This document shows, one piece after another, positions 1-20,428 of a stretch of 64,000 nt of DNA. A program made the position numbers and the translations under genes. The DNA comes from Stutzerimonas stutzeri. Its GTDB lineage: Bacteria; Pseudomonadota; Gammaproteobacteria; Pseudomonadales; Pseudomonadaceae. The DNA lies in NCBI RefSeq assembly GCF_000952685.1, contig NZ_JYHV01000010.1, positions 1-64,000 on the forward strand, given 5' to 3'. The notes under the pieces are model-generated. The model did no database searches and was not told where the DNA came from. It worked only from the letters and a program-made list of their open reading frames with translations. Within the stretch, counting starts at the first letter, position 1; the number at the start of each line of letters is the position of its first letter.

Positions 1-1193
1 TGGCTAAAGAAAAATTCGAACGTAACAAACCGCACCTGAACGTCGGTACCATTGGTCACGTTGACCATGGCAAAACCACGCTCACCGCTGCGCTGACTAA
101 GGTCTGCGCGGAAACTTGGGGCGGCTCTGCACGTGACTTCTCGCAGATCGACAACGCGCCGGAAGAGAAGGCTCGTGGTATCACCATCAACACCTCCCAC
201 GTTGAGTACGATTCCTCGATTCGTCACTACGCTCACGTCGACTGCCCAGGTCACGCTGACTACGTGAAAAACATGATCACCGGTGCTGCGCAGATGGACG
301 GCGCGATCCTGGTTTGTTCCGCTGCTGACGGCCCGATGCCGCAGACGCGCGAACACATCCTGCTGTCCCGTCAGGTAGGTGTTCCTTACATCGTTGTCTT
401 CCTGAACAAGGCTGACATGGTGGATGACGCCGAGCTGCTGGAACTGGTTGAGATGGAAGTGCGTGACCTGCTGTCGACCTACGACTTCCCGGGTGACGAC
501 ACGCCAATCATCATCGGCTCCGCACTGATGGCTCTGAACGGTCAGGACGACAACGAAATGGGTGTGTCGGCCGTGCGCAAGCTGGTCGAGACTCTGGATA
601 GCTACATTCCGGAGCCTGAGCGTGCCATCGACAAGCCGTTCCTGATGCCGATCGAAGACGTGTTCTCGATCTCCGGTCGCGGTACCGTTGTGACCGGTCG
701 CGTTGAGCGCGGCATTGTCAAGGTTCAGGAAGAGATCGAAATCGTTGGTATTCGTGCCACGACCAAGACCACCTGCACCGGCGTTGAAATGTTCCGCAAG
801 CTGCTCGACGAAGGTCGCGCTGGTGAGAACGTGGGCGTGCTGCTGCGTGGTACCAAGCGTGATGACGTAGAGCGTGGTCAGGTTCTGGCCAAGCCGGGCA
901 CCATCAAGCCGCACACCAAGTTCGAAGGCGAAGTCTACGTGCTGAGCAAGGAAGAAGGCGGTCGTCACACGCCGTTCTTCAAAGGCTACCGTCCGCAGTT
1001 CTACTTCCGTACTACTGACGTGACCGGTAACTGCGAGCTGCCGGAAGGCGTAGAAATGGTAATGCCGGGCGACAACATCAAGATGGTTGTCACTCTGATC
1101 GCTCCGATCGCCATGGAAGATGGTCTGCGCTTCGCGATTCGCGAAGGTGGCCGTACCGTGGGTGCCGGCGTGGTTGCCAAGATCATCGAATAA
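1..1193 (+). CDS. tuf: Elongation factor Tu (first base of the start codon lies outside the window)
   Basis: EF-Tu is the GTPase that carries aminoacyl-tRNA to the ribosomal A site. The window opens on the T of its ATG, so essentially all 397 codons are present. The nucleotide-binding elements are intact: GHVDHGKT at residues 19-26, DCPGH at 81-85 and NKAD at 136-139. The two beta-barrel domains follow, and the protein ends in VAKIIE. The length is the normal Pseudomonas length. A strong terminator starts about 15 bases after the stop, so this gene closes the str operon; the expected upstream genes (rpsL, rpsG, fusA) are not in view. Confidence 0.98.
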
Positions 1194-1208
1194 TCCTTTC
1201 GATGTGGG

Positions 1209-1232
1209 AAAGGGCCCTTCGGGGCCCTTTTT
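1209..1232 (+). terminator. Rho-independent terminator of tuf
   Basis: A 9-bp perfect stem, AAAGGGCCC with GGGCCCTTT, closes a TTCG tetraloop and runs into a T tract. It sits 15 bases after the tuf stop and just before the S10 promoter. Confidence 0.92.
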
Positions 1233-1249
1233 CTATTGTTGATCATTTA

Positions 1250-1278
1250 TTGACACCCCCTGGACGCATCCGTACAAT
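1250..1278 (+). promoter_or_regulatory. Sigma70-type promoter of the S10 operon
   Basis: A perfect -35 box TTGACA (1250-1255) is followed by a 17-bp spacer and a -10 box TACAAT (1273-1278). It lies 65 bases upstream of rpsJ and immediately after the tuf terminator, as expected for the main S10 promoter. Confidence 0.88.
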
Positions 1279-1342
1279 TGCGCCTCCTTTTACCGGGCGT
1301 ATTGCGTTTGGTAGGGATGGCTAATTGGAGTCTGAGGTCAAA

Positions 1343-1654
1343 ATGCAAAACCAACAAATCCGTATTCGGTTGAAGGCTTTTGACCATCGCCTGATCGATC
1401 AATCAACCCAGGAAATCGTGGAAACCGCGAAACGTACTGGTGCTCAGGTGCGTGGTCCGATTCCACTGCCGACCCGCAAAGAGCGGTTCACTGTTCTGGT
1501 TTCTCCGCATGTCAACAAGGATGCGCGCGACCAGTATGAGATCCGTACTCATAAGCGTGTGCTGGATATCGTCCAGCCGACCGACAAGACTGTCGATGCG
1601 CTGATGAAGCTTGATCTTGCGGCTGGCGTGGAAGTGCAGATCAGCCTCGGCTAA
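1343..1654 (+). CDS. rpsJ: 30S ribosomal protein S10
   Basis: S10 sits in the head of the small subunit and is also the NusE partner of NusB in antitermination. The 103 residues match the family length and begin [21 protein letters not shown] chose the ATG at 1343, preceded by a GAGG-type ribosome binding site. An upstream in-frame TTG at 1325 would add six residues that S10 proteins lack. It is the first gene of the S10 operon. Confidence 0.98.
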
Positions 1655-1735
1655 AACCTCGAGTTTTAGTCGTGTAACGCTCTGAAATGGGCGGCCATAG
1701 CGGGTGAAAGCCCCGTACACTCAAGAGGTTACAAC

Positions 1736-2371
1736 ATGACTATTGGTGTAGTCGGTCGTAAATGCGGCATGACCCGCGTTTTCACCGAAGATGGTGTCTC
1801 TATTCCGGTTACGGTCATCGAGATCGAGCCGAATCGCGTCACTCAGTTCAAGAATGAAGAGAGCGATGGCTATCGCGCTGTACAGGTTACTGTCGGCGAG
1901 CGTCGCGCGTCCCGTGTTACCAAGGCTCAGGCTGGCCATTTCGCCAAGGCGAACGTTGCTGCCGGTCGTGGTGTCTGGGAATTCCGCCTCGATGGCGAGG
2001 AGTTCCAGGTTGGTGACCAGATCAACGCTGAAATCTTCCAGGCTGGACAGATGGTGGATGTCACCGGTCAGTCCAAGGGTAAAGGCTTTGCCGGTACCAT
2101 CAAGCGCTGGAACTTCCGTGGTCAAGACAATACCCACGGTAACTCCGTATCCCACCGCGTTCCGGGTTCGATTGGCCAGTGCCAGACTCCTGGTCGTGTT
2201 TTCAAGGGCAAGAAGATGTCCGGGCACATGGGCGCCGAGCGCGTAACCGTGCAGTCCCTGGAAATCGTGCGTGTCGATGCAGAGCGTAACCTGCTGCTGG
2301 TGAAGGGCGCAGTGCCCGGCGCCACGGGTGGTGACGTTGTCGTGCGTCCGGCCGCCAAGGCTCGCGGGTAA
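1736..2371 (+). CDS. rplC: 50S ribosomal protein L3
   Basis: L3 is an early-assembling large-subunit protein that binds near the 3' end of 23S rRNA and reaches the peptidyl transferase centre. The 211-residue product begins [16 protein letters not shown]. It contains the loop [20 protein letters not shown] around residues 143-162, whose glutamine is the known PrmB methylation site in this family. A full AGAGG-type site precedes the ATG. Confidence 0.98.
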
Positions 2372-2383
2372 GGGGGAGTTCAC

Positions 2384-2986
2384 ATGCAATTGAATGTAAA
2401 TGGCGCACAGGCCATCGAAGTCTCCGAGCAAACCTTTGGTGGTGAGTTCAACGAGACCCTGGTGCACCAGGCTGTCGTCGCCTATATGGCTGGCGGTCGT
2501 CAGGGCAGCAAGCAGCAGAAGACTCGCTCCGATGTCTCGGGTGGCGGTAAGCGTCCCTGGCGTCAGAAAGGTACTGGCCGCGCGCGTGCGGGTACCTCGC
2601 GTGGTCCGATTTGGCGTGGCGGTGGCGTAACCTTCGCTGCTCGTCCGCAGAACCATGAGCAGAAGCTCAACAAGAAGATGTACCGCGCAGCGCTGCGTTC
2701 CATTCTTTCCGAACTGGTTCGTTCCGAGCGTCTGGTCGTCGTTGAAGATTTCGCCGTCGACAGTCCTAAGACCAAGCTGCTTGCCAACAAGCTGACCGGT
2801 ATGGGCCTGAATGACGTACTGATCGTTTCCGATGCTGTCGATCAGAACCTGTATCTGGCGGCTCGCAACCTGCCGCACGTCGATGTTCGTGACGTTCAGG
2901 GTTCCGATCCAGTCAGCCTGATCGCCTATGACAAGGTGTTGATCACCGTGTCGGCTGTGAAGAAATTCGAGGAGCTGCTGGGATGA
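2384..2986 (+). CDS. rplD: 50S ribosomal protein L4
   Basis: L4 lines the exit tunnel; in E. coli it also represses its own operon. The 200-residue product has the basic loop [20 protein letters not shown] (about residues 49-68) that reaches the tunnel wall. Its last codons overlap the rplW start by ATGA, which indicates translational coupling. Confidence 0.98.
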
Positions 2987-3282
2987 ACCAGGAACGCGTA
3001 TTCAAAGTCCTGCTTGGTCCGCACGTCTCCGAGAAGGCAACCATGCTGGCTGACAGCAAAAGCCAGTTCGTTTTCAAGGTTGCTACTGATGCAACCAAGC
3101 TGGAAATCAAGAAGGCCGTCGAAAGCCTGTTCAACGTGAAGGTAGCCAAAGTCAGCACTCTGAATGTTCAGGGCAAGACCAAGCGCACCGCTCGCGGGCT
3201 GGGCAAGCGCAACGACTGGAAGAAGGCGTACATCGCGCTTCAGCCGGGCCAAGATCTCGATTTCTCCGGCAACGCTGAGTAA
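2983..3282 (+). CDS. rplW: 50S ribosomal protein L23
   Basis: L23 surrounds the polypeptide exit and is the docking site for trigger factor and SRP. The product has 99 residues and starts [19 protein letters not shown]. Its ATG overlaps the rplD stop by four bases. Length and motif are normal. Confidence 0.98.
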
Positions 3283-3296
3283 GGAAGGGGTGCATC

Positions 3297-4118
3297 ATGG
3301 CAATCGTTAAATGCAAACCGACTTCCGCGGGCCGCCGTTTTGTGGTCAAAGTGGTCGGTCAGGAGCTGCACAAAGGCGCTCCTTATGCTCCGCTGCTCGA
3401 GAAGAAGTCGAAGTCAGGCGGTCGTAACAACAACGGTCGTATCACCACGCGTCATATCGGTGGTGGTCACAAGCAGCATTACCGTCTGGTCGATTTTCGC
3501 CGCAACAAGGATGGCATTCCTGCCGTCGTTGAGCGTGTGGAATATGACCCGAACCGCACTGCGCACATTGCGCTGCTGAAGTATGCGGATGGTGAGCGTC
3601 GTTACATCATTGCGCCTAAGGGCGTAAGTGCTGGTGACCAGCTGCTTTCCGGCGTCAACGCGCCGATCAAGGCTGGCAACAGCCTGCCGCTGCGCAACAT
3701 CCCGCTGGGTTCAACCGTTCACGGTGTCGAGCTCAAGCCGGGCAAGGGTGCTCAGATCGCCCGTTCTGCCGGTGCGTCGGCTCAGCTGGTCGCGCGTGAG
3801 GGTGCTTACGTAACACTGCGTCTTCGCTCCGGCGAAATGCGCAAAGTGCTGGCCGAGTGCCGAGCGACTCTGGGCGAGGTCTCGAATTCCGAGCACAGCC
3901 TGCGTTCGCTGGGTAAAGCGGGTGCCAAGCGCTGGCGCGGTGTTCGCCCGACCGTTCGCGGTGTGGCAATGAACCCGGTCGATCACCCCCACGGTGGTGG
4001 TGAGGGTCGTACCTCCGGTGGTCGTCATCCGGTGTCGCCATGGGGCTTCCCGACTAAGGGCGCGAAGACTCGTTCTAACAAGCGCACCGATAACATGATC
4101 GTCCGTCGTCGCAAGTAA
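3297..4118 (+). CDS. rplB: 50S ribosomal protein L2
   Basis: L2 is a primary 23S-binding protein needed for subunit association and peptidyl transferase activity. The 273-residue product has the OB-fold and SH3-like domains and the highly conserved C-terminal segment [17 protein letters not shown], whose histidine is important in E. coli L2. The start is preceded by AAGGAAGGGG. Confidence 0.99.
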
Positions 4119-4134
4119 CTAGAGGGATACGACA

Positions 4135-4410
4135 GTGCCGCGTTCTCTGAAAAAAGGTCCTTTTATCGATCTTCACCTATTGAAGAAGGTCGAAGTGGCG
4201 ATGGAAAAGAATGATCGCAAACCAGTTAAAACCTGGTCGCGTCGTTCGATGATCCTGCCGCAAATGGTCGGTTTGACCATCGCTGTGCATAACGGTCGTC
4301 AACATGTTCCCGTTCTCGTGAACGAAGACATGGTCGGTCACAAACTCGGCGAGTTCGCTGGTACCCGCACCTATCGCGGGCACGTAGCGGACAAGAAAGG
4401 CAAGCGCTAA
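4135..4410 (+). CDS. rpsS: 30S ribosomal protein S19 (GTG start)
   Basis: S19 forms a complex with S13 in the 30S head near the A-site tRNA. The 91-residue product starts [19 protein letters not shown] after a GTG initiator at 4135. No usable ATG exists nearby, and the conserved start fits this GTG. It continues the S10 operon. Confidence 0.98.
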
Positions 4411-4423
4411 GGGGTAAGGAAAG

Positions 4424-4756
4424 ATGGAAGTAGCCGCTAAGTTGTCGGGCGCTCGCATCTCCGCCCAGAAAGCCCGCCTGGTCGCCGACCAGATCCGCGG
4501 GAAGAAGGTGGGCGAAGCGCTCAACCTGCTGGCTTTCAGCAGTAAGAAAGCCGCCGAGATCATGAAGAAAGTGCTGGAGTCGGCCGTGGCCAACGCCGAG
4601 CACAACGAAGGCGCTGACGTGGATGACCTCAAGGTTTCCACGGTCTTCGTCAACGAAGGGCGTTCGCTTAAGCGCATCATGCCGCGTGCCAAAGGCCGCG
4701 CTGATCGCATCGTCAAGCGGTCTTGCCATATCACTGTCAAGGTTGCGGACAAGTAA
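4424..4756 (+). CDS. rplV: 50S ribosomal protein L22
   Basis: L22 contacts all 23S domains, and its long beta hairpin forms part of the exit-tunnel constriction (a macrolide resistance locus). The 110-residue product begins [20 protein letters not shown]. The hairpin tip region [12 protein letters not shown] is intact, with no visible macrolide-type deletion. A GGGGTAAGGA site precedes the ATG. Confidence 0.98.
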
Positions 4757-4769
4757 CGGAGTCGATCAG

Positions 4770-5456
4770 ATGGGTCAGAAAGTACATCCCACTGGCATTC
4801 GCCTGGGAATCGTCAAGGAGCACACCTCCGTCTGGTACGCAGACGGACGTACGTACGCCGATTATCTGCTTGCAGATCTGAACGTGCGTGAGTACCTCCA
4901 AGACAAATTAAAAAGCGCGTCCGTAAGCCGTATCGATATCCATCGCCCGGCTCAAACCGCACGCATCACTATCCATACCGCTCGTCCCGGCATCGTGATC
5001 GGCAAGAAAGGTGAGGATGTTGAGAAGCTGCGTCAGGACCTGACCAAGAAAATGGGTGTGCCTGTGCACATCAACATCGAAGAAATCCGCAAGCCGGAAC
5101 TCGATGCAATGCTGGTAGCACAGAACGTCGCTCAGCAGCTGGAGCGTCGCGTAATGTTCCGTCGCGCCATGAAGCGCGCCGTACAGAACGCGATCCGCAT
5201 TGGTGCCAAGGGCATCAAGATCCAGGTGAGCGGTCGTCTGGGTGGGGCTGAAATCGCCCGTACGGAATGGTATCGGGAAGGTCGTGTGCCGCTGCACACC
5301 CTGCGTGCCGATATTGACTACAACACCTACGAAGCACACACCACTTACGGTGTGATCGGCGTCAAGGTTTGGATCTTCAAGGGCGAAGTTATTGGTGGTC
5401 GCCATGAAGAGCTCAAGCCGCAAGCGCCTGCGCCTCGTAAAAAAGCTGCCAAGTAA
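4770..5456 (+). CDS. rpsC: 30S ribosomal protein S3
   Basis: S3 lies at the mRNA entry channel and contributes helicase activity together with S4 and S5. The 228-residue product begins [20 protein letters not shown]. It carries the KH-domain GKKG loop (around residues 73-76) and a lysine-rich end. I placed the start at 4770 because the longer frame reaching back to 4623 runs inside rplV and lacks family similarity there. Confidence 0.98.
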
Positions 5457-5468
5457 GGAGTACGCCAA

Positions 5469-5882
5469 ATGTTGCAACCCAAGCGTACAAAATTCCGTAA
5501 GCAGATGACTGGTCACAATCGTGGCCTGGCTCAGCGCGGTAGCAAAGTCAGCTTCGGCGAGTTCGCTCTGAAGTCTGTCGCTCGTGGACGTCTCACTGCA
5601 CGCCAGATCGAGTCCGCACGTCGTGCGTTGACCCGTCACGTGAAGCGTGGCGGTAAAATCTGGATCCGTGTGTTCCCCGATAAGCCTATCTCCAAAAAGC
5701 CTCTGGAAGTCCGGATGGGTAAAGGTAAGGGTAACGTCGAGTACTGGGTGGCCCAGATTCAGCCGGGCAAGGTGCTCTACGAGATCGAGGGTGTTTCCGA
5801 AGAGCTGGCGCGTGAGGCATTCGCCCTGGCTGCTGCAAAGCTGCCGCTCGCCACCTCCTTTGTTAAGCGGACGGTGATGTGA
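5469..5882 (+). CDS. rplP: 50S ribosomal protein L16
   Basis: L16 helps shape the A site and organises 23S helices. The 137-residue product starts [20 protein letters not shown] and is of normal length. The conserved residues around [20 protein letters not shown] are present. Its TGA shares one base with the ATG of rpmC. Confidence 0.98.
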
Positions 5883-6073
5883 TGAAAGCGAATGAGCTTC
5901 GTGAAAAATCCGCTCAGCAGCTGAACGAGCAACTGCTCGAGCTGCTGCGCGACCAGTTCAATCTGCGTATGCAGAAGGCAACTGGCCAGTTGGGGCAGTC
6001 TCACCTGCTCTCGCAAGTCAAGCGCGACATCGCTCGTGTCAAGACTGTGCTCAACCAGCAGGCAGGTAAGTGA
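5882..6073 (+). CDS. rpmC: 50S ribosomal protein L29
   Basis: L29 is a small helical protein beside L23 at the tunnel exit. The start is the ATG at 5882, overlapping the rplP TGA by one base and giving 63 residues ([20 protein letters not shown]). A GTG three bases upstream would add one extra residue and is less likely. Confidence 0.97.
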
Positions 6074-6075
6074 TC

Positions 6076-6342
6076 ATGGCTGAAGTTGAAAAAACTGTCC
6101 GCACGCTGACTGGCCGCGTCGTCAGCGACAAAATGGACAAAAGCATCACCGTTCTGATCGAGCGTCGTGTTAAGCACCCGATCTACGGTAAATACGTGAA
6201 GCGTTCGACCAAACTGCACGCCCACGACGAAACCAACCAGTGCCGTATTGGCGACAAGGTCACTATCCGCGAGACTCGTCCGCTGGCGAAGACCAAGTGC
6301 TGGATGCTGGTTGATGTCGTTGAACGTGCCGTCGAAGTCTAA
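6076..6342 (+). CDS. rpsQ: 30S ribosomal protein S17
   Basis: S17 is a primary 16S-binding OB-fold protein. The 88-residue product begins [21 protein letters not shown] use the ATG at 6076, two bases after the rpmC stop. An in-frame GTG at 6070 would overlap rpmC and add only two residues. It is the last gene before the 23-base gap to rplN, where the spc block begins. Confidence 0.97.
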
Positions 6343-6365
6343 GGGCTAGGGGTCGGAGAAATTAT

Positions 6366-6734
6366 ATGATTCAGACTCAATCAATGCTCGATGTGGCGGA
6401 TAACAGTGGCGCTCGTCGCGTCATGTGTATCAAGGTTCTCGGCGGTTCGCACCGCCGTTACGCCGGCATCGGCGACATCATCAAGGTAACCGTCAAGGAA
6501 GCGATCCCGCGTGGCAAGGTCAAGAAAGGCCAGGTGATGACTGCTGTCGTAGTCCGCACTCGTCACGGTGTTCGTCGTCCGGACGGCTCCATTATTCGCT
6601 TCGATGGCAACGCTGCTGTTCTGTTGAACAACAAGCAGGAGCCGATCGGCACCCGTATTTTCGGGCCGGTGACACGTGAGCTTCGTTCCGAGAAGTTCAT
6701 GAAGATCGTCTCGCTCGCGCCTGAAGTGCTGTAA
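6366..6734 (+). CDS. rplN: 50S ribosomal protein L14
   Basis: L14 sits at the subunit interface next to L19 and binds the silencing factor RsfS. The 122-residue product starts [20 protein letters not shown] and has the typical length. A GGAG site precedes the ATG. It is the first gene of the spc block. Confidence 0.98.
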
Positions 6735-6745
6735 GGAGAAGCCGC

Positions 6746-7060
6746 ATGCAAAAGATTCGTCGCAACGACGAGATCATCGTCATCGCCGGCAAAGACAAGG
6801 GCAAGCGCGGTAAGGTGCTCCGGGTTCTCGCTGACGACCGTCTGGTCGTCGGTGGTATCAACCTCGTGAAGCGTCATACCAAGCCGAACCCGATGTCGGG
6901 CGTTCAAGGCGGTATCGTCGAAAAGGAGGCGCCTCTGCACGCCTCTAACGTCGCTATCTTCAACGGCGAAACCAACAAGGCTGACCGTGTTGGTTTCAAA
7001 GTAGAAGACGGCAAGAAAATTCGTGTCTTCAAGTCGACCCAAAAGCCGGTTGAAGCTTGA
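6746..7060 (+). CDS. rplX: 50S ribosomal protein L24
   Basis: L24 is one of the two initiators of large-subunit assembly. The 104-residue product contains the KOW motif [18 protein letters not shown] near its N terminus. It is preceded by AAGGAG and sits 11 bases after rplN. Confidence 0.98.
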
Positions 7061-7079
7061 GACTGCTAGGTAGATAACC

Positions 7080-7619
7080 ATGGCACGACTAAAAGAAGTT
7101 TATCGGAAGCAAATCGCTCCCAAGCTGAAAGAAGAGCTTCAGCTTGGCAACGTGATGGAAGTTCCGCGCATCACCAAGATCACCCTGAACATGGGTATCG
7201 GCGAAGCGATCGGTGACAAAAAAATTATCGACAACGCGGTTGCTGATCTGGAAAAGATCACCGGCCAAAAGGTCGTCGTGACTCACGCACGCAAGTCCAT
7301 CGCCGGCTTCAAGGTCCGCGAAGGTTGGCCGATCGGTGTCAAGGTGACCCTGCGTAGCGATCGTATGTACGAATTCCTGGATCGTTTGCTGTCGATCTCC
7401 CTGCCCCGGGTTCGCGACTTCCGCGGCCTGAATGCCAAGTCCTTCGACGGACGTGGTAACTACAGCATGGGCGTGAAAGAGCAGATCATTTTCCCGGAAA
7501 TCGATTACGACAAGATCGATGCGCTGCGTGGTCTGGACATCACGCTGACCACTACTGCTCGAACGGATGAAGAGGGTCGCGCACTGTTGCGTGCCTTCAA
7601 CTTCCCGTTCCGTAACTAA
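7080..7619 (+). CDS. rplE: 50S ribosomal protein L5
   Basis: L5 binds 5S rRNA in the central protuberance and forms a bridge to S13. The 179-residue product contains the family segment [20 protein letters not shown] and ends AFNFPFRN. In E. coli S8 represses the spc operon through an mRNA site near the start of rplE; whether that site is kept here needs RNA folding. Confidence 0.98.
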
Positions 7620-7631
7620 TTGGAGTAGGAA

Positions 7632-7937
7632 ATGGCTAAGCAAAGCATGAAGAACCGCGAGCTGAAGCGTCAGCAGACGGTTGCCAAGTACGCCCAGAAG
7701 CGTGCTGCGCTGAAAGCTGTCATCGCTAATCCCGAGTCGTCTCCAGAGGCGCGTTGGGAAGCTCAGGTTGCTCTGCAGAAGCAGCCTCGTGATGCCAGTG
7801 CTTCGCGTCTGCGTAATCGTTGCCGTCTGACTGGCCGCCCGCATGGTGTGTACCGCAAGTTTGGTCTTGCGCGTAACATGCTGCGTCAGGCTGCGATGCG
7901 CGGTGATGTGCCGGGTCTGGTGAAAGCCAGCTGGTAA
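7632..7937 (+). CDS. rpsN: 30S ribosomal protein S14 (long, zinc-free type)
   Basis: S14 assembles late in the 30S head. The 101-residue product is the long form. It has a single cysteine and no CxxC...CxxC zinc ribbon, so this copy does not need zinc. The conserved [19 protein letters not shown] segment is present. It is followed by an unusually long spacer (189 bases) before rpsH. Confidence 0.98.
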
Positions 7938-7973
7938 TAACGCTCCGGCAGTTGTTGTCGGAACTGCAGTTGT

Positions 7974-8006
7974 CGAATCAAGCCCCTTATGGGGCTTGAT
8001 TCGTTT
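7974..8006 (+). terminator. Terminator-like hairpin between rpsN and rpsH
   Basis: A perfect 13-bp stem (7974-7986 with 7991-8003) closes a TTAT loop, followed by only three Ts. It begins 36 bases after the rpsN stop inside what is usually treated as one operon. It may cause partial termination or protect the upstream mRNA's 3' end. Confidence 0.7.
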
Positions 8007-8024
8007 CTGAACTGTCTCTAGAAT
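7996..8024 (+). promoter_or_regulatory. Internal sigma70-like promoter upstream of rpsH
   Basis: TTGATT (7996-8001), a 17-bp spacer and TAGAAT (8019-8024). The -35 box lies within the 3' arm of the preceding hairpin. It would restart transcription for rpsH to rpmJ. This is read from sequence only; no start site is known. Confidence 0.6.
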
Positions 8025-8028
8025 GTCC

Positions 8029-8106
8029 GGCTCGCCCGAGCCATGCCTGTTAGGCGTTCGCTCATTTAGTAGCAGGCGACACGAGCCCTAGCGGGCTTAT
8101 TTTTTT
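8029..8106 (+). promoter_or_regulatory. Possible attenuator in the rpsH leader
   Basis: The segment GGCTCG (8029-8034) can pair with CGAGCC at 8037-8042 or with an identical CGAGCC at 8082-8087. The second copy is also the 5' arm of a hairpin (8083-8088 with 8093-8098) running into a seven-T tract 21 bases before rpsH. The two pairings are mutually exclusive, which is the usual layout of an attenuator. No trigger can be assigned from sequence. Confidence 0.4.
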
Positions 8107-8126
8107 GAATTAGGAGCCAAGAGCCC

Positions 8127-8519
8127 ATGAGTATGCAGGACCCGTTAGCGGACATGCTAACTCGTATCCGTAATGCCCAGATGGCCGAAAAGTCCGTCGT
8201 AAGCATGCCGTCTTCCACTTTGAAGGTGGCTGTAGCCAACGTTCTTCAGGGTGAGGGCTATATCGCAGGATACAACGTCAGCAGCGACGCCAAACCGCAG
8301 CTGTCTATCGAGCTCAAGTACTTCGAAGGCCGTCCGGTTATCGAAGAGCTGAAGCGCGTAAGCCGTCCTGGCCTTCGCCAGTACAAATCCGTTGATCAGT
8401 TGCCGAAAGTTCGCGGCGGTCTGGGTGTTTCGATCGTATCCACCAATAAAGGTGTGATGACGGATCGGGCTGCTCGCGCTGCTGGCGTTGGCGGCGAAGT
8501 GCTCTGCACAGTGTTCTAA
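8127..8519 (+). CDS. rpsH: 30S ribosomal protein S8
   Basis: S8 binds the central domain of 16S rRNA and is the spc-operon repressor in E. coli. The 130-residue product begins [20 protein letters not shown] and ends in the typical GGEVLCTVF. An AGGAG site lies upstream of the ATG at 8127. The 189-base leader with a promoter and alternative hairpins sits directly in front of it. Confidence 0.98.
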
Positions 8520-8531
8520 GGGGGGATAAGC

Positions 8532-9065
8532 ATGTCTCGCGTTGCTAAGAACCCCGTCAAGCTGCCCGCTGGTGTTGAATTCAACATGGCCGGCCAGCAG
8601 CTTTCGGTGAAGGGTGCCAAGGGTACTCTCGAACTGAACGTGCACTCGTCTGTGGAAGTGATCCACGAGGCCGGTGAGCTCCGTTTTGCTGCGCGTAATG
8701 GCGATCAGCAGAACCGTGCCATGGCCGGTACCACCCGTGCGCTGGTTAACAATATGGTGATCGGCGTCAGCCAAGGCTTCGAGCGCAAGCTTCAGCTGGT
8801 TGGTGTTGGTTACAAGGCGCAAGCCAAAGGTCAAGTGCTGTCCCTGGCTCTCGGCTTCTCGCACCCGGTGGAGTATGAACTGCCGCAAGGCGTTACCGCT
8901 GAGACCCCCAGCCAGACCGATATCCTGATCAAGGGTGTCGATAAGCAACTGGTCGGTCAGGTGGCTGCTGAAATCCGTGATTTCCGCCGTCCTGAGCCCT
9001 ACAAGGGCAAAGGCGTGCGTTACTCGGACGAAGTGGTCCGTCGTAAAGAAGCTAAGAAGAAGTAG
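8532..9065 (+). CDS. rplF: 50S ribosomal protein L6
   Basis: L6 is a two-domain protein near the sarcin-ricin loop and L7/L12 stalk base. The 177-residue product starts [20 protein letters not shown] and contains the C-terminal signature [11 protein letters not shown]. Spacing to rpsH is 12 bases, with a GGGG-rich ribosome binding site. Confidence 0.98.
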
Positions 9066-9075
9066 GGCATAGCAA

Positions 9076-9426
9076 ATGAGCGTAAAGAAAGTTACTCGTC
9101 TGCGTCGCGCTCGCAAGGCACGCCTGAAGATGCGCGAGCTGGAAACCGTACGCCTTTGTGTGTACCGCTCTTCCCAGCACATCTACGCCCAGGTCCTTTC
9201 GGCCGACGGCGGCAAGGTCCTGGCCAGTGCCTCGACTCTCGACAAAGAACTGCGCGACGGAGCCACCGGCAACGTCGACGCTGCCAAGAAAGTTGGTCAG
9301 CTGGTCGCTGAGCGTGCTAAGGCCGCAGGTGTCACCCAGGTGGCGTTCGACCGTTCTGGCTTCAAGTACCACGGTCGTGTCAAGGCACTGGCTGATGCTG
9401 CTCGTGAAGGCGGGCTGGAGTTCTAA
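9076..9426 (+). CDS. rplR: 50S ribosomal protein L18
   Basis: L18 recruits 5S rRNA to the large subunit together with L5 and L25. The 116-residue product starts [20 protein letters not shown] and ends [13 protein letters not shown], the conserved end of the family. Confidence 0.98.
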
Positions 9427-9429
9427 GTT

Positions 9430-9930
9430 ATGGCATATAACGAGCAAAAGCGCGACGAAGGCTACATTGAGAAGCTGGTTCAAGTTAACCGCGTCGCCAA
9501 GACAGTAAAAGGTGGTCGTATCTTCACATTCACTGCGTTGACCGTAGTGGGTGATGGTAAGGGTCGTGTAGGTTTCGGTCGTGGCAAGTCGCGCGAAGTG
9601 CCGGCTGCCATTCAGAAGGCTATGGAAGCGGCTCGCCGCAACATGATCCAGGTCGATCTGAACGGCACGACTCTGCAGTACGCGACCAAGGCAGCGCATG
9701 GCGCTTCCAAGGTGTACATGCAGCCTGCTTCGGAAGGTACCGGTGTTATTGCCGGTGGTGCGATGCGTGCCATTCTTGAAGTGGCTGGCGTGCAGAACGT
9801 CCTGGCCAAGTGCTACGGCTCTACCAATCCAGTGAACGTGGTCCATGCCACTTTCAAGGGATTGAAGGCCATGCAGTCGCCTGAGTCGATCGCTGCTAAG
9901 CGTGGCAAGAGCGTTGAGGAGATTTCCTGA
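9430..9930 (+). CDS. rpsE: 30S ribosomal protein S5
   Basis: S5 affects decoding accuracy and is the spectinomycin resistance locus. The 166-residue product contains the N-terminal double-stranded-RNA-binding fold, with [20 protein letters not shown] around residues 20-39, where the spectinomycin-site loop lies; I see no obvious resistance deletion. It starts three bases after the rplR stop. Confidence 0.98.
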
Positions 9931-9932
9931 TC

Positions 9933-10112
9933 ATGGCTAACACCGTCAAGGTCACGCTGATCAAAAGCGTCAGCGGTCGTATCCCCAATCACAAGCTTTG
10001 CGTCAAAGGCCTCGGTCTGCGTCGCATTGGTCACACCGTCGAAGTCCAGGATACTCCTGAAAATCGCGGCATGATCAACAAGGCTTACTACATGCTCCGT
10101 GTGGAGGGCTAA
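9933..10112 (+). CDS. rpmD: 50S ribosomal protein L30
   Basis: This is a short gene of 59 codons. The product begins [20 protein letters not shown] and ends [13 protein letters not shown], a typical L30. The start lies two bases after the rpsE stop, and the downstream rplO start is three bases after its TAA, so it is tightly coupled on both sides. Confidence 0.97.
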
Positions 10113-10115
10113 GCC

Positions 10116-10550
10116 ATGCAACTGAACGATCTGCGTTCTGCGCCAGGCGCCCGTCGCGAAAAGCTGCGTCCGGGCCGTGGTATCGGTAGCGGCCTCGGCA
10201 AGACCGGTGGTCGTGGTCACAAGGGTCAGACTTCCCGCTCTGGCGGCAAGATCGCTCCCGGTTTCGAAGGCGGCCAACAGCCTTTGCATCGCCGTCTGCC
10301 TAAGTTTGGCTTCGTCTCCTTGAAGGCTATGGATCGTGCTGAAGTACGTACCTCCGAGCTGGCAAAGGTTCAGGGCGACGTCGTAACTCTGCAGAGCCTT
10401 AAGGATGCCGACATCATCAATCAGAACGTACAGCGCGTGAAAGTCATGCTGTCGGGTGAGGTTGGTCGTGCGGTAACTCTGAAAGGCATCGCCGCCACCA
10501 AGGGTGCGCGTGCGGCTATCGAAGCAGCTGGCGGCAAGTTCGAGGAATAA
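10116..10550 (+). CDS. rplO: 50S ribosomal protein L15
   Basis: L15 is a late-assembling protein that contacts many 23S helices. The 144-residue product has the glycine-rich basic N terminus ([19 protein letters not shown]) and the motif [18 protein letters not shown]. Its stop abuts the secY ATG with no gap. Confidence 0.98.
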
Positions 10551-11879
10551 ATGGCTAAGCAAGGTGCTCTCTCCGCGCTGAATAGTGGCGGGCTTTCTGA
10601 ACTTTGGGCTCGTCTGCGTTTTCTGCTGATGGCGATCATCGTCTATCGTGTTGGCGCACACATCCCGGTTCCGGGAATCAATCCCGACAGGTTGGCCGAG
10701 CTGTTCCGTCAGAACGAAGGGACCATCCTTAGCTTGTTCAACATGTTTTCCGGTGGTGCGCTGGAGCGCATGAGCATCTTTGCCTTGGGGATCATGCCGT
10801 ATATCTCGGCATCGATCATCATGCAGCTCATGACGGCTGTCAGTCCCCAGTTGGAGCAGTTGAAGAAAGAGGGCGAGTCCGGTCGTCGCAAGATTAGTCA
10901 GTACACGCGCTACGGTGCTTTGGTGTTGGCTATCGTGCAGGCCATTGGTATGTCGGTCGGTCTCGCCGGCCAGGGTGTCGCCTTCAGCACTGACTTCGGC
11001 TTCTACTTCGTAGCTGTCACTACCTTTGTGGCAGGGGCGATGTTCATGATGTGGCTGGGGGAGCAGATCACCGAGCGGGGTGTCGGTAACGGCATTTCGA
11101 TGTTGATCTTCGCTGGTATCGTTGCCGGTCTCCCTGGCGCCCTGGGGCAGTCGTTCGAATCTGCGCGGCAGGGCGATGTCAACATCATCGCACTGCTGGC
11201 CGTTGGTTTGCTGGCGATCGCCATCATCGGGTTCGTTGTGTTCATCGAGCGTGGTCAGCGGCGAATCGCCGTGCATTACGCCAAGCGTCAGCAGGGCCGC
11301 AAGGTCTTCGCTGCGCAGACGAGTCACCTTCCGCTGAAGGTGAACATGGCGGGTGTCATCCCTGCCATTTTTGCCAGCAGCATTCTGCTGTTCCCTGCTT
11401 CCTTGGGACAGTGGTTCGGACAGTCGGAGAACATGGGATGGCTGGCTGATATTTCTCAGTCGATCGCCCCTGGTCAGCCGTTGAATATCCTATTGTTCAG
11501 CGCCGGCATCATCTTCTTCTGCTTCTTCTATACGGCATTGATGTTCAATCCGAAGGATGTTGCAGAAAACCTGAAGAAGTCCGGTGCATTTATCCCGGGG
11601 ATTCGGCCTGGTGAGCAGTCGGCACGCTATATCGATGGTGTGTTGACTCGTTTGACCATGTTCGGCGCCCTATACATGACGGCTGTATGCTTGCTACCGC
11701 AGTTTCTTGTGGTGGCAGCAAACGTGCCGTTCTACCTTGGCGGGACGTCGTTGCTGATTGTGGTTGTGGTTGTAATGGACTTCATGTCCCAGGTTCAATC
11801 TCACCTCATGTCTCACCAGTACGATTCCCTGATGAAAAAAGCCAACCTGAAGGGCTATGGCAGCGGAATGCTCCGCTGA
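10551..11879 (+). CDS. secY: Protein translocase channel subunit SecY
   Basis: SecY is the pore of the SecYEG translocon in the inner membrane. The 442-residue product has ten predicted membrane segments. It carries the plug region after the first helix and the cytoplasmic loop [19 protein letters not shown] (about residues 226-244) that binds SecA or the ribosome. It is cotranscribed with rplO, as in other gammaproteobacteria. Confidence 0.99.
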
Positions 11880-11909
11880 GGTCAGCCCGTAAGGTTCCAG
11901 GAGTTGGTC

Positions 11910-12026
11910 ATGAAAGTTCGTGCATCGGTCAAAAAGCTGTGCCGCAACTGCAAAATCGTTCGTCGCGAAGGTGTCGTTCGAGTGATCTGCAGCGCAGAAC
12001 CGCGTCACAAGCAGCGCCAAGGCTGA
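11910..12026 (+). CDS. rpmJ: 50S ribosomal protein L36 (zinc-binding type)
   Basis: This 38-codon gene encodes [20 protein letters not shown] and ends [10 protein letters not shown]. It contains C11, C14 and C27 with H33, so it is the C+ form whose fold needs zinc. Many pseudomonads keep a zinc-free paralogue elsewhere under Zur control; none is in this window. It is the last gene of the spc block. Confidence 0.97.
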
Positions 12027-12045
12027 TTGTGAGCTAAGGCTCGAG

Positions 12046-12069
12046 CCCGGCAGCTAGTGCGCTGCCGGG
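12046..12069 (+). terminator. Hairpin closing the spc block
   Basis: A 9-bp perfect stem, CCCGGCAGC with GCTGCCGGG, has a 6-base loop and is followed by a T-rich but interrupted stretch. It lies 19 bases after the rpmJ stop. It may terminate only partially. Confidence 0.65.
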
Positions 12070-12098
12070 TTGATTATTTGTTATTACAGCGTTAGTAT
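12070..12098 (+). promoter_or_regulatory. Sigma70-like promoter of the alpha operon
   Basis: TTGATT (12070-12075), a 17-bp spacer and TAGTAT (12093-12098) begin on the base after the hairpin ends. This is the expected position of the alpha-operon promoter, about 60 bases before rpsM. Confidence 0.6.
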
Positions 12099-12157
12099 CT
12101 CGCGCCCTTTTCTTGGCTTCCGGGGCGTTGGGTAGCTGTCAATTGGAGTTTCACTGA

Positions 12158-12514
12158 ATGGCCCGTATTGCAGGCGTAAACATTCCGGATAACAAGCACA
12201 CTGTTATCTCGCTGACCTACATCTATGGTGTCGGTCGCACTCGTGCGCAGACTATCTGTGCTGCTACCGGTGTAAATCCGGCAGCGAAAATCAAGGATCT
12301 TTCCGACGAGCAGGTCGAACTGCTGCGTGGTGAAGTGGCCAAGTTCATCGTTGAAGGTGACCTGCGTCGCGAAGTCAACATGAAGATCAAGCGCTTGATG
12401 GACCTGGGTTGCTATCGCGGCCTGCGTCATCGTCGTGGTCTGCCGGTACGCGGTCAGCGCACCAAGACCAACGCTCGTACCCGTAAGGGTCCGCGTAAGC
12501 CGATCCGCAAGTAA
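12158..12514 (+). CDS. rpsM: 30S ribosomal protein S13
   Basis: S13 is in the 30S head, contacts P-site tRNA and bridges to L5. The 118-residue product starts [20 protein letters not shown] and ends in the basic tail [19 protein letters not shown] site precedes the ATG. It is the first gene of the alpha operon. Confidence 0.98.
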
Positions 12515-12544
12515 TCGCGTTAGCGCATCGACAGGAATCTAATC

Positions 12545-12934
12545 ATGGCAAAACCTGCTGCTCGTCCTCGTAAGAAAGTAAAAAAGACGGTGGTTGATGG
12601 CATCGCCCATATCCACGCATCTTTTAACAACACCATCATCACTATCACCGATCGCCAAGGCAATGCATTGTCCTGGGCTACGTCCGGTGGTTCCGGTTTC
12701 CGCGGCTCCCGTAAGAGCACTCCGTTCGCTGCCCAGGTGGCTGCCGAGCGTGCTGGTCAAGCGGCACTGGAATATGGCCTCAAGAACCTCGACGTCAACG
12801 TCAAGGGTCCTGGTCCGGGCCGTGAATCTGCCGTTCGTGCATTGAACGGCTGTGGTTATAAAATCGCCAGCATCACCGACGTGACGCCAATCCCGCACAA
12901 CGGGTGCCGTCCGCCGAAGAAGCGCCGCGTGTAA
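12545..12934 (+). CDS. rpsK: 30S ribosomal protein S11
   Basis: S11 lies on the platform beside the E-site mRNA. The 129-residue product includes [20 protein letters not shown] and the C-terminal motif [20 protein letters not shown], both diagnostic of S11. An AGGA site lies upstream. Confidence 0.98.
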
Positions 12935-12951
12935 TCAGGAGACAGTGAGAA

Positions 12952-13572
12952 ATGGCTCGTTATATTGGTCCCAAGTGCAAACTGTCTCGTCGTGAAGGCA
13001 CCGATCTCTTCTTGAAGAGTGGTGCGCGCGCGCTCGAATCGAAGTGCAACATCGAAACCCCACCGGGTGTTCATGGTCAGCGTCGTGGTCGTCTGTCTGA
13101 CTACGGCACGCAGCTGCGTGAAAAGCAGAAAGTTCGTCGTATCTACGGCGTACTTGAGCGTCAGTTCAGCGGCTACTACAAAGAAGCTGCCAGCCGTAAG
13201 GGCGCTACCGGCGAAAACCTGCTGCAACTGCTGGAATGCCGTCTGGATAACGTGGTTTACCGCATGGGCTTCGGCTCTACTCGTGCCGAGTCGCGTCAGC
13301 TTGTTTCCCACAAGGCTATCAGCGTTAACGGCAAAACCGTGAACGTTCCGTCCTTTCAGGTGAAGGCCGGTGACGTGGTTGCCGTTCGTGAGAAGTGCCG
13401 TAACCAGCTGCGCATCGCCCAAGCCCTGGAACTGTGCGTACAGCGCGGTCGCGTTGAGTGGGTCGAAGTAGACGCCGACAAGAAATCTGGTGTTTTCAAG
13501 AGTGTTCCGGCTCGCAGTGATCTGTCCGCCGACATCAACGAAAACCTGATTGTCGAGCTCTACTCCAAGTAA
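12952..13572 (+). CDS. rpsD: 30S ribosomal protein S4
   Basis: S4 nucleates 30S assembly and in E. coli represses the alpha operon by binding a pseudoknot. The 206-residue product starts [20 protein letters not shown]. It carries the S4 RNA-binding domain (about residues 96-157, [20 protein letters not shown]). Family length is normal. Confidence 0.98.
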
Positions 13573-13594
13573 GGGCTAGAAAATAGGTGTATCC

Positions 13595-14596
13595 ATGCAG
13601 ATTTCGGTAAATGAGTTCCTGACCCCCCGCCATATCGATGTGCAGGTGGTCAGTCCGACCCGTGCCAAGATTACGCTCGAGCCTCTCGAGCGTGGTTTCG
13701 GCCATACCCTGGGCAACGCGCTGCGTCGTATCCTGTTGTCCTCCATGCCCGGCTGCGCTGTGGTCGAGGCTGAGATCGACGGTGTGCTCCACGAGTACAG
13801 TGCTATCGAGGGCGTGCAGGAAGATGTCATCGAAATCCTGCTGAACCTCAAAGGTATCGCCATCAAGCTGCACGGCCGTGATGAAGTGACCTTGAGCCTG
13901 GTGAAGAAGGGCGCGGGCGCTGTTACCGCTGCCGATATCCAGCTGGATCACGATGTCGAAATCGTCAATGGCGATCACCTGATCGCCAACCTGGCGGCCA
14001 ATGGCTCGATCAACATGAAGCTTAAGGTCGCACGCGGCCGTGGCTACGAGCCGGCTGATGCACGTCAGAGTGACGAAGACGAGAGCCGCAGCATTGGCCG
14101 TCTTCAGCTCGACGCGACATTCAGCCCGGTTCGTCGCGTAGCGTATGTTGTCGAAAACGCTCGTGTTGAGCAGCGCACCAACTTGGACAAGCTGGTCATC
14201 GACCTGGAAACCAATGGAACCCTGGATCCCGAAGAGGCGATCCGTCGTGCCGCGACCATCCTGCAGCAGCAGTTGGCCGCGTTCGTCGACCTCAAGGGTG
14301 ACAGCGAGCCGGTCGTAGTCGAGCAGGAAGACGAGATCGATCCGATCCTGTTGCGTCCGGTTGACGATTTGGAACTGACCGTACGTTCGGCAAACTGCCT
14401 CAAGGCAGAAAACATCTACTACATCGGTGACCTGATCCAGCGCACCGAAGTCGAGCTGTTGAAAACGCCGAACCTGGGCAAGAAATCTCTGACCGAAATC
14501 AAAGATGTTCTGGCTTCTCGTGGTCTGTCCCTCGGCATGCGCCTCGACAATTGGCCGCCGGCCAGTCTCAAGAAGGACGATAAGGCTACGGCCTGA
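13595..14596 (+). CDS. rpoA: RNA polymerase alpha subunit
   Basis: Alpha dimerises to scaffold RNA polymerase, and its C-terminal domain contacts UP elements and activators. The 333-residue product has the N-terminal dimerisation domain (to about 235), an acidic linker and the C-terminal helix-hairpin-helix domain (about 250-320), with [20 protein letters not shown] and the [14 protein letters not shown] segment. Confidence 0.99.
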
Positions 14597-14641
14597 TCGA
14601 CCATAGTCACCGAACTGATCGTTTGGTAAGGAATTTCAATC

Positions 14642-15028
14642 ATGCGTCATCGTAAAAGTGGCCGTCATCTCAGCCGCACAAGCGCTCACCGCAAGGCCAT
14701 GTTTCAGAACATGGCGGTGTCGCTGTTCGAGCACGAACTGATCAAAACAACCCTGCCCAAGGCCAAGGAGCTGCGTCGTGTTGCTGAGCCGCTGATCACC
14801 CTGGCCAAGGAAGACAGCGTCGCCAACCGCCGTTTGGCTTTCGACCGTACTCGCTCGAAGGCTATCGTCGGCAAGCTGTTCAACGATCTGGGTCCGCGTT
14901 ACGCCACCCGTCAGGGCGGTTATCTGCGTATTCTCAAGTGCGGCTTCCGCGCTGGAGACAATGCTCCGATGGCTTACGTTGAACTGGTTGACCGTCCGGT
15001 TACCGGTGAAGTGGAAGCTGCAGAGTAA
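14642..15028 (+). CDS. rplQ: 50S ribosomal protein L17
   Basis: L17 lies near the tunnel exit. The 128-residue product begins [20 protein letters not shown], the conserved family start, preceded by a TAAGGA site. It is the last gene of the alpha operon and is followed by a strong terminator. Confidence 0.98.
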
Positions 15029-15043
15029 GCATTCGCTTGCTTG

Positions 15044-15075
15044 AAAAAACCGGGCGATCGCCCGGTTTTTTTTTT
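15044..15075 (+). terminator. Terminator of the alpha operon
   Basis: A long GC-core palindrome centred at 15057/15058, with six As before it and more than ten Ts after it, starts 16 bases past the rplQ stop. It is a textbook intrinsic terminator ending the ribosomal super-cluster. Confidence 0.95.
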
Positions 15076-15384
15076 CATTTTTTAGGCTGGATCTATCGCG
15101 AAGGCCCGTTCAATGAACGGTGTGCTGCGGCCGTCTGGTTAGATTCGATCCTCAGCCTGCGAGACCAAAGATAAGCGAGCGCATTTGTTCTTGCACTTAT
15201 CAGCGGCGGGGCGATCAAGGCTCAGCTTGATATTGAACATCCGCTCAGATATCGGCGCCATGAAGCCAGTGATATTCAGCCCGTCAGCCTGGATATTTCT
15301 TCCAGGCCAACCAGGTGCATGGTGTTGGTATCGTGGAGGGGTTGGAATTCGATCCTGATGAGGCTAGCTAAGAGCTGAAAAATA
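15076..15384. other. Gene-free interval with a possible degraded coding remnant
   Basis: No intact gene is present between rplQ and uvrA; in P. aeruginosa this junction holds katA and bfrA. On the plus strand a 39-codon open run (about 15183-15298, including IKAQLDIEHPLRYRRHEASD) can be joined by one frameshift near 15296 to another ending QVHGVGIVEGLEFDPDEAS and a stop at about 15371. I do not recognise the protein, and this may be chance. Confidence 0.3.
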
Positions 15385-15407
15385 AAGCCGGGCGCAAGGC
15401 CCGGCTT
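15377..15407 (-). terminator. Terminator of uvrA
   Basis: Read on the minus strand, a 9-bp stem (15385-15393 with 15399-15407) is followed by TTATTTTT. It lies 16 bases after the uvrA stop. Confidence 0.85.
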
Positions 15408-15422
15408 CTTCTTGCCTGTGGG

Positions 15423-18260: not shown

Positions 18261-18391
18261 AGCAGCCTCGCGTGGCGGGCGAAAACCCGAAAGTATACGA
18301 CCAGGGGCGACATCGCGGCAAAGTTGCGAGCCTGTGCCGAGCCGGGGATGGCTGCTAGAATCGCCGCCGGTTCATTCAAGCGAGTCCCGCA

Positions 18392-19759
18392 ATGCACGAT
18401 CCCTACAGCGAGCGCATGAGCGTCAGAGAAACCCGCGCCGCATCCGGGCTGGCCCTGGTTTTCGCGTTTCGTATGCTCGGCATGTTCATGGTGCTGCCAG
18501 TCCTGGCGACGTACGGCATGGATCTGCGGGGAGCGACACCGGCACTGATTGGCCTCGCTATCGGTGCCTATGGTTTGACCCAGGCTGTGCTACAAATTCC
18601 GTTCGGCATGCTCTCAGATCGAATCGGTCGGCTGCCAGTGATCTATTTCGGTCTGCTGATCTTCGCTGCTGGAGCCGTGCTGGCGGCGTCGGCCGACTCC
18701 ATTTGGGGCGTCATCGCCGGTCGTATCCTGCAGGGGGCGGGGGCCATTTCGGCGGCGGTGATGGCTCTGCTATCGGATCTCACTCGCGAGCAGCATCGCA
18801 CCAAAGCGATGGCGATGATCGGCATGAGTATCGGTATTTCATTCGCTGTTGCCATGGTCGTCGGCCCGCTGTTGACCCGCGCATACGGATTATCCGGCCT
18901 GTTCTGGATAACGGCTGGAATGGCGCTGCTGGGCGCGCTCATTGTTGCGACGCTACCACGGGCTCATCGGCATTTGCGCCATCGCGAATCCGGCGTGGCG
19001 AAGCAGGCGCTCGGCGTTACCGTGCGTGATCCCGATTTGCTGCGGCTCGATTTCAGTATCTTCGTGCTGCACGCCATTCTGATGGCGAGCTTTGTTGCCC
19101 TGCCCCTGGCTCTGGTCAATAACGCAGGCCTTCCCAAGGATGAGCATTGGTGGGTCTATCTCACGGCGCTGGTGGTTGGCTTCTTCGGTATGGTGCCTTT
19201 CATCATCTACGGTGAGAAGAAGCGTCAAATGAAGCGCGTCGTGCTGGGCGCCGTGGGTGGACTGGTCCTGACCGAGCTGTTCTTCTGGTTGTTCGGTGAC
19301 CGCCTTTGGTCGCTGGTTGCTGGCATGATCGCGTTCTTCATCGCGTTCAATCTGCTGGAGGCTTCTCTGCCTTCATTGATCAGCAAGGTGGCACCCGCTG
19401 GCGGCAAGGGCACGGCGATGGGGATTTATTCCACGAGTCAGTTTCTCGGTTCCGGCTTGGGTGGCGTTCTTGGTGGCTGGCTTTATCAACTCGGCGGTTT
19501 AGGGCTGGTCTTTGCCGGTTGTGCGGTGTTGTGCACGCTGTGGCTGCTGGTTGCCTGGGGCATGCGGGAGCCGCCTTATGTAACCGGGCTGCGCCTGCCG
19601 CTCTCGATCGATGCAGCGCGTAATCCGGCGCTCGCCGAACAGATGTTGGCGGTTCCAGGTGTCTCGGATGCCGTGGTGATCACCGAGGAGTCGGCCGCCT
19701 ACGTCAAGGTCGACATGCAAGCGCTGGATCGGGCTGCGCTCGATCGGCTAGTCGCCTGA
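18392..19759 (+). CDS. MFS exporter with C-terminal YAM-like domain (YajR-like)
   Basis: This 455-residue major facilitator has about 12 membrane helices. The family signature [12 protein letters not shown] falls after helix 2. After the last helix it continues for about 65 soluble residues (from [11 protein letters not shown] to the end) containing [20 protein letters not shown], which resembles the ferredoxin-like YAM domain of E. coli YajR, also about 454 residues long. Family knowledge suggests a drug or proton-coupled exporter of unknown substrate. The uvrA-MFS-ssb order is conserved in Pseudomonas. The start at 18392 could instead be the ATG at 18416. Confidence 0.88.
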
Positions 19760-19933
19760 CTGGCTTCTGGGATTGCTGCCCGCGTCGGGATGCTTAGTGT
19801 CCCAACGCCCAAGCTCGCGCCGGTTGGCCGACTTGGGGTGGTAAGGTAAGATTCACGGTCATTGGTTTTCCCGGTCACGGGGATTCTCTCCAATGAGCCA
19901 ACCCAATTCACGTTCAAACTAAGGAGTTACCTC

Positions 19934-20428
19934 ATGGCCAGAGGGGTGAATAAAGTCATCTTGATCGGTAATGTCGGCGGCGACCCGGAAACCCGCTACA
20001 TGCCCAATGGCAATGCGGTGACCAACATCACGCTGGCCACCACTGACAGCTGGAAGGACAAGCAGACCGGCCAGCAGCAGGAGCGCACCGAGTGGCACCG
20101 CGTCGTGCTGTTCGGCAAGGTTGCCGAGATTGCCGGCGAGTACCTGCGCAAGGGCTCGCAGTGCTATATCGAAGGCCGCCTGCAGACCCGTGAATGGGAA
20201 AAGGATGGCGTCAAGCGCTACACCACCGAGGTGGTAGTGGACATGGGCGGCACCATGCAGCTGCTCGGCGGCCGCGGTGGCAGCTCCGACGATGCACCGC
20301 GTCAGTCGCAGCCGCGTCCTCAGCGTGAGTCGCAACCTCAGCAGCAGTCGCGCCCGCAGTCTCAGCCGCAGCCCGCGCAGCAACCCGCTCCGGACTACGA
20401 CAGCTTCGACGACGATATCCCGTTCTAG
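19934..20428 (+). CDS. ssb: Single-stranded DNA-binding protein
   Basis: SSB coats single-stranded DNA in replication, repair and recombination. The 164-residue product begins [20 protein letters not shown] (OB fold, about residues 1-110). A Gln/Pro/Arg-rich linker follows, ending in the acidic tip [11 protein letters not shown] that recruits partner proteins. AAGGAG lies before the ATG at 19934. An in-frame TTG at 19862 would add 24 residues foreign to the family. Confidence 0.98.

Follow-up and report, generated by a model that had tools for sequence, protein, structure and literature searches.

A candidate operon boundary with a structured leader in front of rpsH in Pseudomonadaceae

In Stutzerimonas stutzeri, the ribosomal protein genes rpsN and rpsH are separated by 189 nt, and this gap raises the question of whether rpsH continues the upstream transcript or opens a transcription unit of its own. 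The gap lies in the window, i.e., the whole stretch of 64,000 nt that was analysed (positions 1 to 64,000 of contig NZ_JYHV01000010.1). A preliminary description had placed there a hairpin with a -35 element inside it, the motif GGCTCG, two CGAGCC copies and a T tract, and each of these elements is indeed present at its position. Together with the elements found subsequently, the gap has the following layout:

7937: end of rpsN; the gap to rpsH is 189 nt
7944 to 7962, + strand: H0, a weak 8-bp hairpin just 3' of rpsN, here without a T run
7974 to 8003, + strand: H1, a perfect 13-bp terminator-like hairpin (arms 7974-7986 and 7991-8003, 4-nt loop)
7996 to 8001, + strand: -35 element TTGATT, within the 3' arm of H1
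8019 to 8024, + strand: -10 element TAGAAT, 17 nt after the -35
8029 to 8031, + strand: probable transcription start zone, placed by its distance to the -10
8029 to 8034: the sequence GGCTCG
8029 to 8042, + strand: 5'-terminal hairpin GGCTC/GAGCC
8032 to 8036, + strand: 5' strand of the long-range helix P1, TCGCC
8037 to 8042: first copy of the sequence CGAGCC
8075 to 8079, + strand: 3' strand of P1, GGCGA; its equivalent covaries with that of 8032-8036 in relatives
8082 to 8087, + strand: second CGAGCC, alternative partner of 8029-8034, overlapping the 5' arm of H3
8083 to 8098, + strand: H3, terminator-like hairpin GAGCCC/GGGCTT (5' arm 8083-8088)
8100 to 8106, + strand: T tract (T7) 3' of H3
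8112 to 8116, + strand: rpsH Shine-Dalgarno sequence AGGAG, invariant in 33 aligned Stutzerimonas leaders
8127 to 8519, + strand: rpsH (S8), first gene of the proposed downstream unit

Promoter and upstream hairpins

Taken alone, the promoter match of the window is at chance level (one promoter-like match in 6500-9500, 0.9 expected), and so are its terminator matches (three found, 2.9 expected); 6-nt inverted matches are likewise frequent by chance, with nine in 300 nt. The promoter and H3 are convincing because they are conserved in relatives, not because of their matches in the window. H1 is far above chance already in the single sequence, its folding energy of -24.7 kcal/mol being equalled by none of 200 shuffles (mean -7.2, sd 2.2).

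Conservation was assessed in 170 rpsN-rpsH loci (30, the window's own included, plus 80 and 60 that were fetched), corresponding to 156 distinct gaps; several loci of the 30-locus and 80-locus sets are the same contigs, and the sample is a subset, rpsH having been found in 187 of 198 family genomes and the best 80 of 562 relatives having been kept. A module consisting of H1, a -35 in its 3' arm, the spacer and a -10 occurs in 147 of the 156 distinct Pseudomonadaceae gaps and is missing from nine (11 loci of a single genus, 38-40 nt long). The module was selected by its -10 with GGCT (or one near variant) behind it, never by its -35, and all 147 gaps hold the hexamers of a sigma-70 type promoter, 16-18 bp apart at orthologous sites: the -35 reads TTGATT in 125, TTGTTT in 14, TTGCTT in six and TTGACT in two, the -10 reads TAGAAT in 135, TAAAAT in eight, TAGGAT in three and TATAAT in one, and the spacing is 17 bp in 146 and 18 bp in one. 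In 143 of the 147 gaps, the best hairpin has a 3' arm within which the -35 starts; in the others (L007, L011, L019, L029) the hairpin chosen as best lies further upstream, so that the -35 is outside it. The gap of Pseudomonas yangonensis is 325 nt long, more than 100 nt above that of its relatives, and carries its extra sequence 5' of H1.

A reporter study bears on the activity of the orthologous gap in P. aeruginosa PAO1, where the gene PA4249 is rpsH, an identity with which the primers of the study agree. Crouzet et al. report constitutive expression of eGFP from the PAO1 "PA4249 promoter" (PMC4189659). The primers of PMC4189659 match exactly at the end of rpsN and the start of rpsH in two relatives (G126, G100), in which the span between them encloses H1, the -35, the -10 and the leader; since the reporter is a plasmid fusion, vector read-through is possible. 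With a -35 at 17-18 bp in 147/147 gaps and a fluorescent PAO1 gap reporter (PMC4189659), the internal promoter 5' of rpsH that the preliminary description had proposed is strongly supported.

Upstream of the promoter, the H0 position holds a best stem of at least seven pairs in 118 of 147 gaps and at least five T within the next 9 nt in 31; in some relatives a clear intrinsic terminator is found there. H1 itself is near-invariant in sequence among the Pseudomonadaceae that hold the module. Its stem is followed, within 9 nt, by at least four T in 120 of 147 gaps (exactly four in 63) and by two or three in 27, and in the window the stretch after it, GTTTCTG, is a poor T run. H1 may therefore terminate only weakly.

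The near-perfect symmetry of H1, which spans the -35, and its near-invariance would also suit a palindromic DNA site through which a transcription factor governs the rpsH promoter. Changes in its arms, as in the putida group and in L145 and L146, are compensated, which fits a palindrome and a hairpin equally. A binding site for such a factor is nevertheless highly improbable: the loop varies in length (3 nt in 21, 4 nt in 121 and 5 nt in four of 146 gaps measured), 18 of 19 genomes of the genus, among them that of the window, contain a single copy of the palindrome, and the stem of L145 and L146, rebuilt with other bases, has eight T behind it. In the 13 of these 18 genomes for which the position was compared, the palindrome lies just 5' of rpsH, and it was found in none of ten genomes of other families. 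A hairpin resembling H1 in a genome of another family was discarded as a counterpart, the surrounding 1.8 kb holding no recognisable spc gene. H1 is read here as a terminator-like hairpin.

Position of the candidate boundary among Gammaproteobacteria

In E. coli K-12, the rpsN-rpsH gap measures 33 nt and the rpsQ-rplN gap 164 nt; the latter contains, according to sequence and gene table, a terminator hairpin followed by a promoter, which we take to be Pspc. The rpsQ-rplN gap of the window is 23 nt. With the promoter located between rpsQ and rplN in E. coli and before rpsH here, the boundary lies four genes further downstream. The same distribution is found in six further Pseudomonadaceae from five genera (rpsQ-rplN 18-23 nt, rpsN-rpsH 127-189 nt), and four genomes of the genus without the module have 41-44 nt and 39 nt, respectively. 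In a class sample of 30 genomes, one per other gammaproteobacterial family, drawn from 107 with rpsH, all 30 have an rpsN-rpsH gap of 9-66 nt, and the rpsQ-rplN gap reaches at least 118 nt in seven of the 29 in which both genes were found. Within the order, 20 genomes were drawn from 51 of other families with rpsH, and 18 of them have an rpsN-rpsH gap below 100 nt; the other two (L237 and L242, of one family, f139) have a gap of 129-130 nt, in which a promoter-like sequence differs from the module of the Pseudomonadaceae. The boundary before rpsH may, because of this family, have arisen more than once; in these samples it is a mark of the Pseudomonadaceae that is absent from one genus.

The E. 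coli S10/spc boundary offers the closest comparison: both consist of a hairpin with T run (a poor one in the window), a -35, 17 bp, a -10 and a GC-rich stretch, and the ribosomal protein genes downstream follow in the same order. In contrast to E. coli, the boundary is positioned before rpsH, four genes downstream, its -35 lies within the hairpin, and it is followed by a structured leader that contains another terminator-like hairpin. The kind of arrangement, promoter, terminators and leader, is ordinary; its place is unusual. Most likely, the combination of terminator and promoter before rpsH splits the large ribosomal operon elsewhere than in E. coli.

The rpsN-rpsH gap could function as a boundary in the following manner, which we consider probable as a whole: Polymerase arriving from upstream would be stopped, wholly or partly, at H0 and H1. 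The housekeeping promoter with its -35 in the 3' arm of H1 would restart transcription at about 8029-8031 for rpsH and the genes that follow. The RNA made from there would open with a folded leader of ~97 nt, the first nucleotides of which may form either the local 5' hairpin or the long-range helix P1. At the end of the leader, beside the ribosome-binding site, H3 and its T run would most likely cause part of the RNAs to end early, i.e., attenuation.

Predicted structure of the rpsH leader

The hairpin at the end of the leader was counted with its GCC/GGC core as anchor, which covers 134 of the 147 leaders (12 were put aside and one has no core). The three core pairs are present in all 134, the fourth in 132 and the fifth in 113, so that the H3 stem of most leaders comprises about five pairs. 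The fifth pair is T-A in 59, G-T in 31, C-G in 18 and A-T in five of these 113, and the 10 nt after the stem contain 6-9 T in 134/134. Among the Stutzerimonas leaders alone, the covariation of H3 does not exceed that of shuffles (90 of 500 match the score). The stem is degenerate or unlike in L130, L131, L132, L134 (P. aeruginosa-like), L139, L140, L145 and L146; a different hairpin occupies the position in L125 and L127, the stem of L128 lacks the common core, and L126 and L167 are also outside the count. The terminator-like hairpin of the preliminary description has thus held up in relatives: a GC hairpin with T run, kept with covariation at the fifth pair across 134 leaders, has the signature of an intrinsic terminator or a strong pause, as judged by its sequence. 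Because H3 is conserved, its fifth pair covaries and its T run is kept, a candidate attenuator is a reasonable reading, and attenuation at this leader is plausible.

The same features might serve translation or stability of the rpsH mRNA, with a structured 5' end and a U-rich standby site and with no attenuation involved. H3, whose stem is short, and the T run directly adjoin the Shine-Dalgarno sequence, and for L060 and L077 the fold of lowest predicted energy joins the 5' segment of the leader to the Shine-Dalgarno region. Yet 6-9 T in every leader counted, combined with a covarying fifth pair, is the usual signature of a terminator, which makes a role in translation or stability alone a possibility to be taken seriously rather than the probable one. 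A leader peptide was also considered and dismissed: an ATG lies between the RNA start and the Shine-Dalgarno sequence in 50 of 146 leaders, and the ATG of the window's short frame is missing at that place in the other 32 aligned Stutzerimonas leaders. Attenuation at H3 is retained as the preferred reading.

The leader start is strongly conserved, GGCTC being kept in 145 of 146 leaders. Of 146 leaders, 134 can form the 5' hairpin GGCTC/GAGCC with five consecutive pairs and nine with fewer than four; no two-sided change was found in this hairpin among 33 Stutzerimonas leaders. How H3 formation might be decided had been attributed in the preliminary description to two exclusive pairings of GGCTCG with the identical CGAGCC copies, the second of which overlaps the 5' arm of H3. 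Both pairings exist in the window, and the one with the second copy extends over 6 bp in most Stutzerimonas leaders (29 of 34) and over 4 bp in most others (95 of 104), nine of the 147 leaders being put aside in this count because their H3 is doubtful or missing. Outside the genus, mostly GGCT/AGCC is left of the alternative pairing, which is mainly a Stutzerimonas trait. Among 33 of the 34 Stutzerimonas leaders, 96% of cells are paired and no change is two-sided, a result that shuffles equal; the compensatory change that the proposal called for is thus not seen in these relatives, and with it the covarying, exclusive antiterminator pairing expected of an attenuator. Moreover, the stretch before the ATG is a rival partner, pairing with the leader start by at least 4 bp in 104/104 leaders outside Stutzerimonas, and GGCTC is nearly invariant while the H3 arm varies. 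The Shine-Dalgarno region, as in the predicted folds of L060 and L077, is a further possible partner. As to control of such a toggle by S8, sequence comparison of the window's leader with the organism's own 16S detects no 16S-like stretch (56 of 100 shuffles are as good), and the corresponding numbers are 8/100 for a fluorescens and 82/100 for a putida leader. Within the preliminary description, the GGCTCG switch has the least support, and its operation under S8 control is very unlikely.

Covariation points to another pairing, P1, between nucleotides 4-11 of the leader and the segment immediately 5' of H3. Its strands differ together between relatives, e.g., TCACCTG/CAGGTGA (L085), CACAAGA/TCTTGTG (L128), CGCCAGA/TCTGGCG (L150), and TCTCCTGA, which pairs with TCAGGGGA (L073, L087). 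Across 146 leaders, P1 attains a mean score of 12.69, compared to 11.76 (sd 0.16) when the windows are exchanged between leaders, the best of 200 exchanges reaching 12.2. In 34 leaders of the fluorescens-putida group, six cells show a two-sided change, all at one pair; none of 500 shuffles attains the two-sided cells, the share paired or the covariation score, and the number of pairs with two-sided change and the number of pair types are matched by 287 and 286 of the 500. When P1 is exchanged among 16 loop classes (138 leaders), one in 10,000 exchanges is as good, with the proviso that relatedness inflates such tests; the largest loop class scores alike with its own and with foreign windows (13.2 vs 13.0), and five small classes score lower than foreign windows. 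RNAalifold on two leader alignments (A1, A2) returned no pair with two-sided change. A covariance model built from A2 matches the leaders of the window (33.6 bits), L130, L153 and L125, matches L128, L209 and L210 weakly (E 0.011-0.08) and finds nothing in L140, L145, L237, L242, L173 and L221.

P1 excludes the 5' hairpin and does not overlap H3; it is, for the latter reason, not a classical antiterminator. If the leader switches, the choice between P1 and the 5' hairpin would be the likelier switch than the GGCTCG/CGAGCC pairing.

Known leader families, possible effectors and consequences

Rfam searches of positions 1-20000 and 7900-8200 of the window and of six relatives yielded no leader family at the rpsN-rpsH gap; the only two matches at the leader (E 0.65 and 2.3) are far below gathering. 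Elsewhere in the cluster, positions 12095-12190 (+) match the Alpha operon (S4) leader with 48.4 bits, above the gathering score, which suggests that the known control site for S4 has been retained. In the rpsJ-rplC gap, the Rfam LSU model detects at positions 1670-1724 (+) a likeness to positions 330-384 of 23S rRNA that stays below the gathering score (32.3 bits, E 1.4e-6). Of 59 Pseudomonadaceae genomes compared with the segment 1630-1740, 57 gave a match, and some contain extra, weaker, multi-copy matches that may be their 23S genes. By its likeness, 1670-1724 is possibly an rRNA mimic before rplC-rplD(L4)-rplW.

The literature searched yielded no description of an rpsH leader element, covarying pairing included. 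The term "rpsH" occurs 0 times in the main texts of PMC8297930, PMC7247131, PMC2965389, PMC10931766, PMC2704228 and PMC3460626, and rplE-rpsN-rpsH is mentioned for Streptococcus (PMC8046335). Like other attenuators predicted for ribosomal protein genes, e.g., the Pseudomonas rpsL-leader (PMC2965389), the rpsH leader combines alternative pairings with a terminator-like hairpin 5' of such a gene, but the gene concerned is a different one. The S8 translational operator of E. coli, located at the start of rplE, involves the same operon and the same protein (PMC10931766); it differs from the present leader in its place, and the likeness to 16S by sequence is here not beyond chance, an S8 site being expected to resemble 16S helix 21. 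The link to S8 drawn in the preliminary description rests on the identity of the gene, and nothing points to S8 as the effector; S8 is possibly one of several candidates. We regard it as rather unlikely that the leader represents a new family of ribosomal protein leaders, in which, at a boundary before rpsH, the choice between 5' hairpin and P1 would set termination at H3, with feedback by S8 or another ribosomal protein of the downstream unit.

Were transcription divided before rpsH, rplN-rplX-rplE-rpsN would remain part of the upstream transcript, and S8 and the genes behind it would start separately. Given such a separate start at rpsH, the E. coli scheme, in which S8 acts at rplE on one spc mRNA, would not be applicable unchanged in Pseudomonas.
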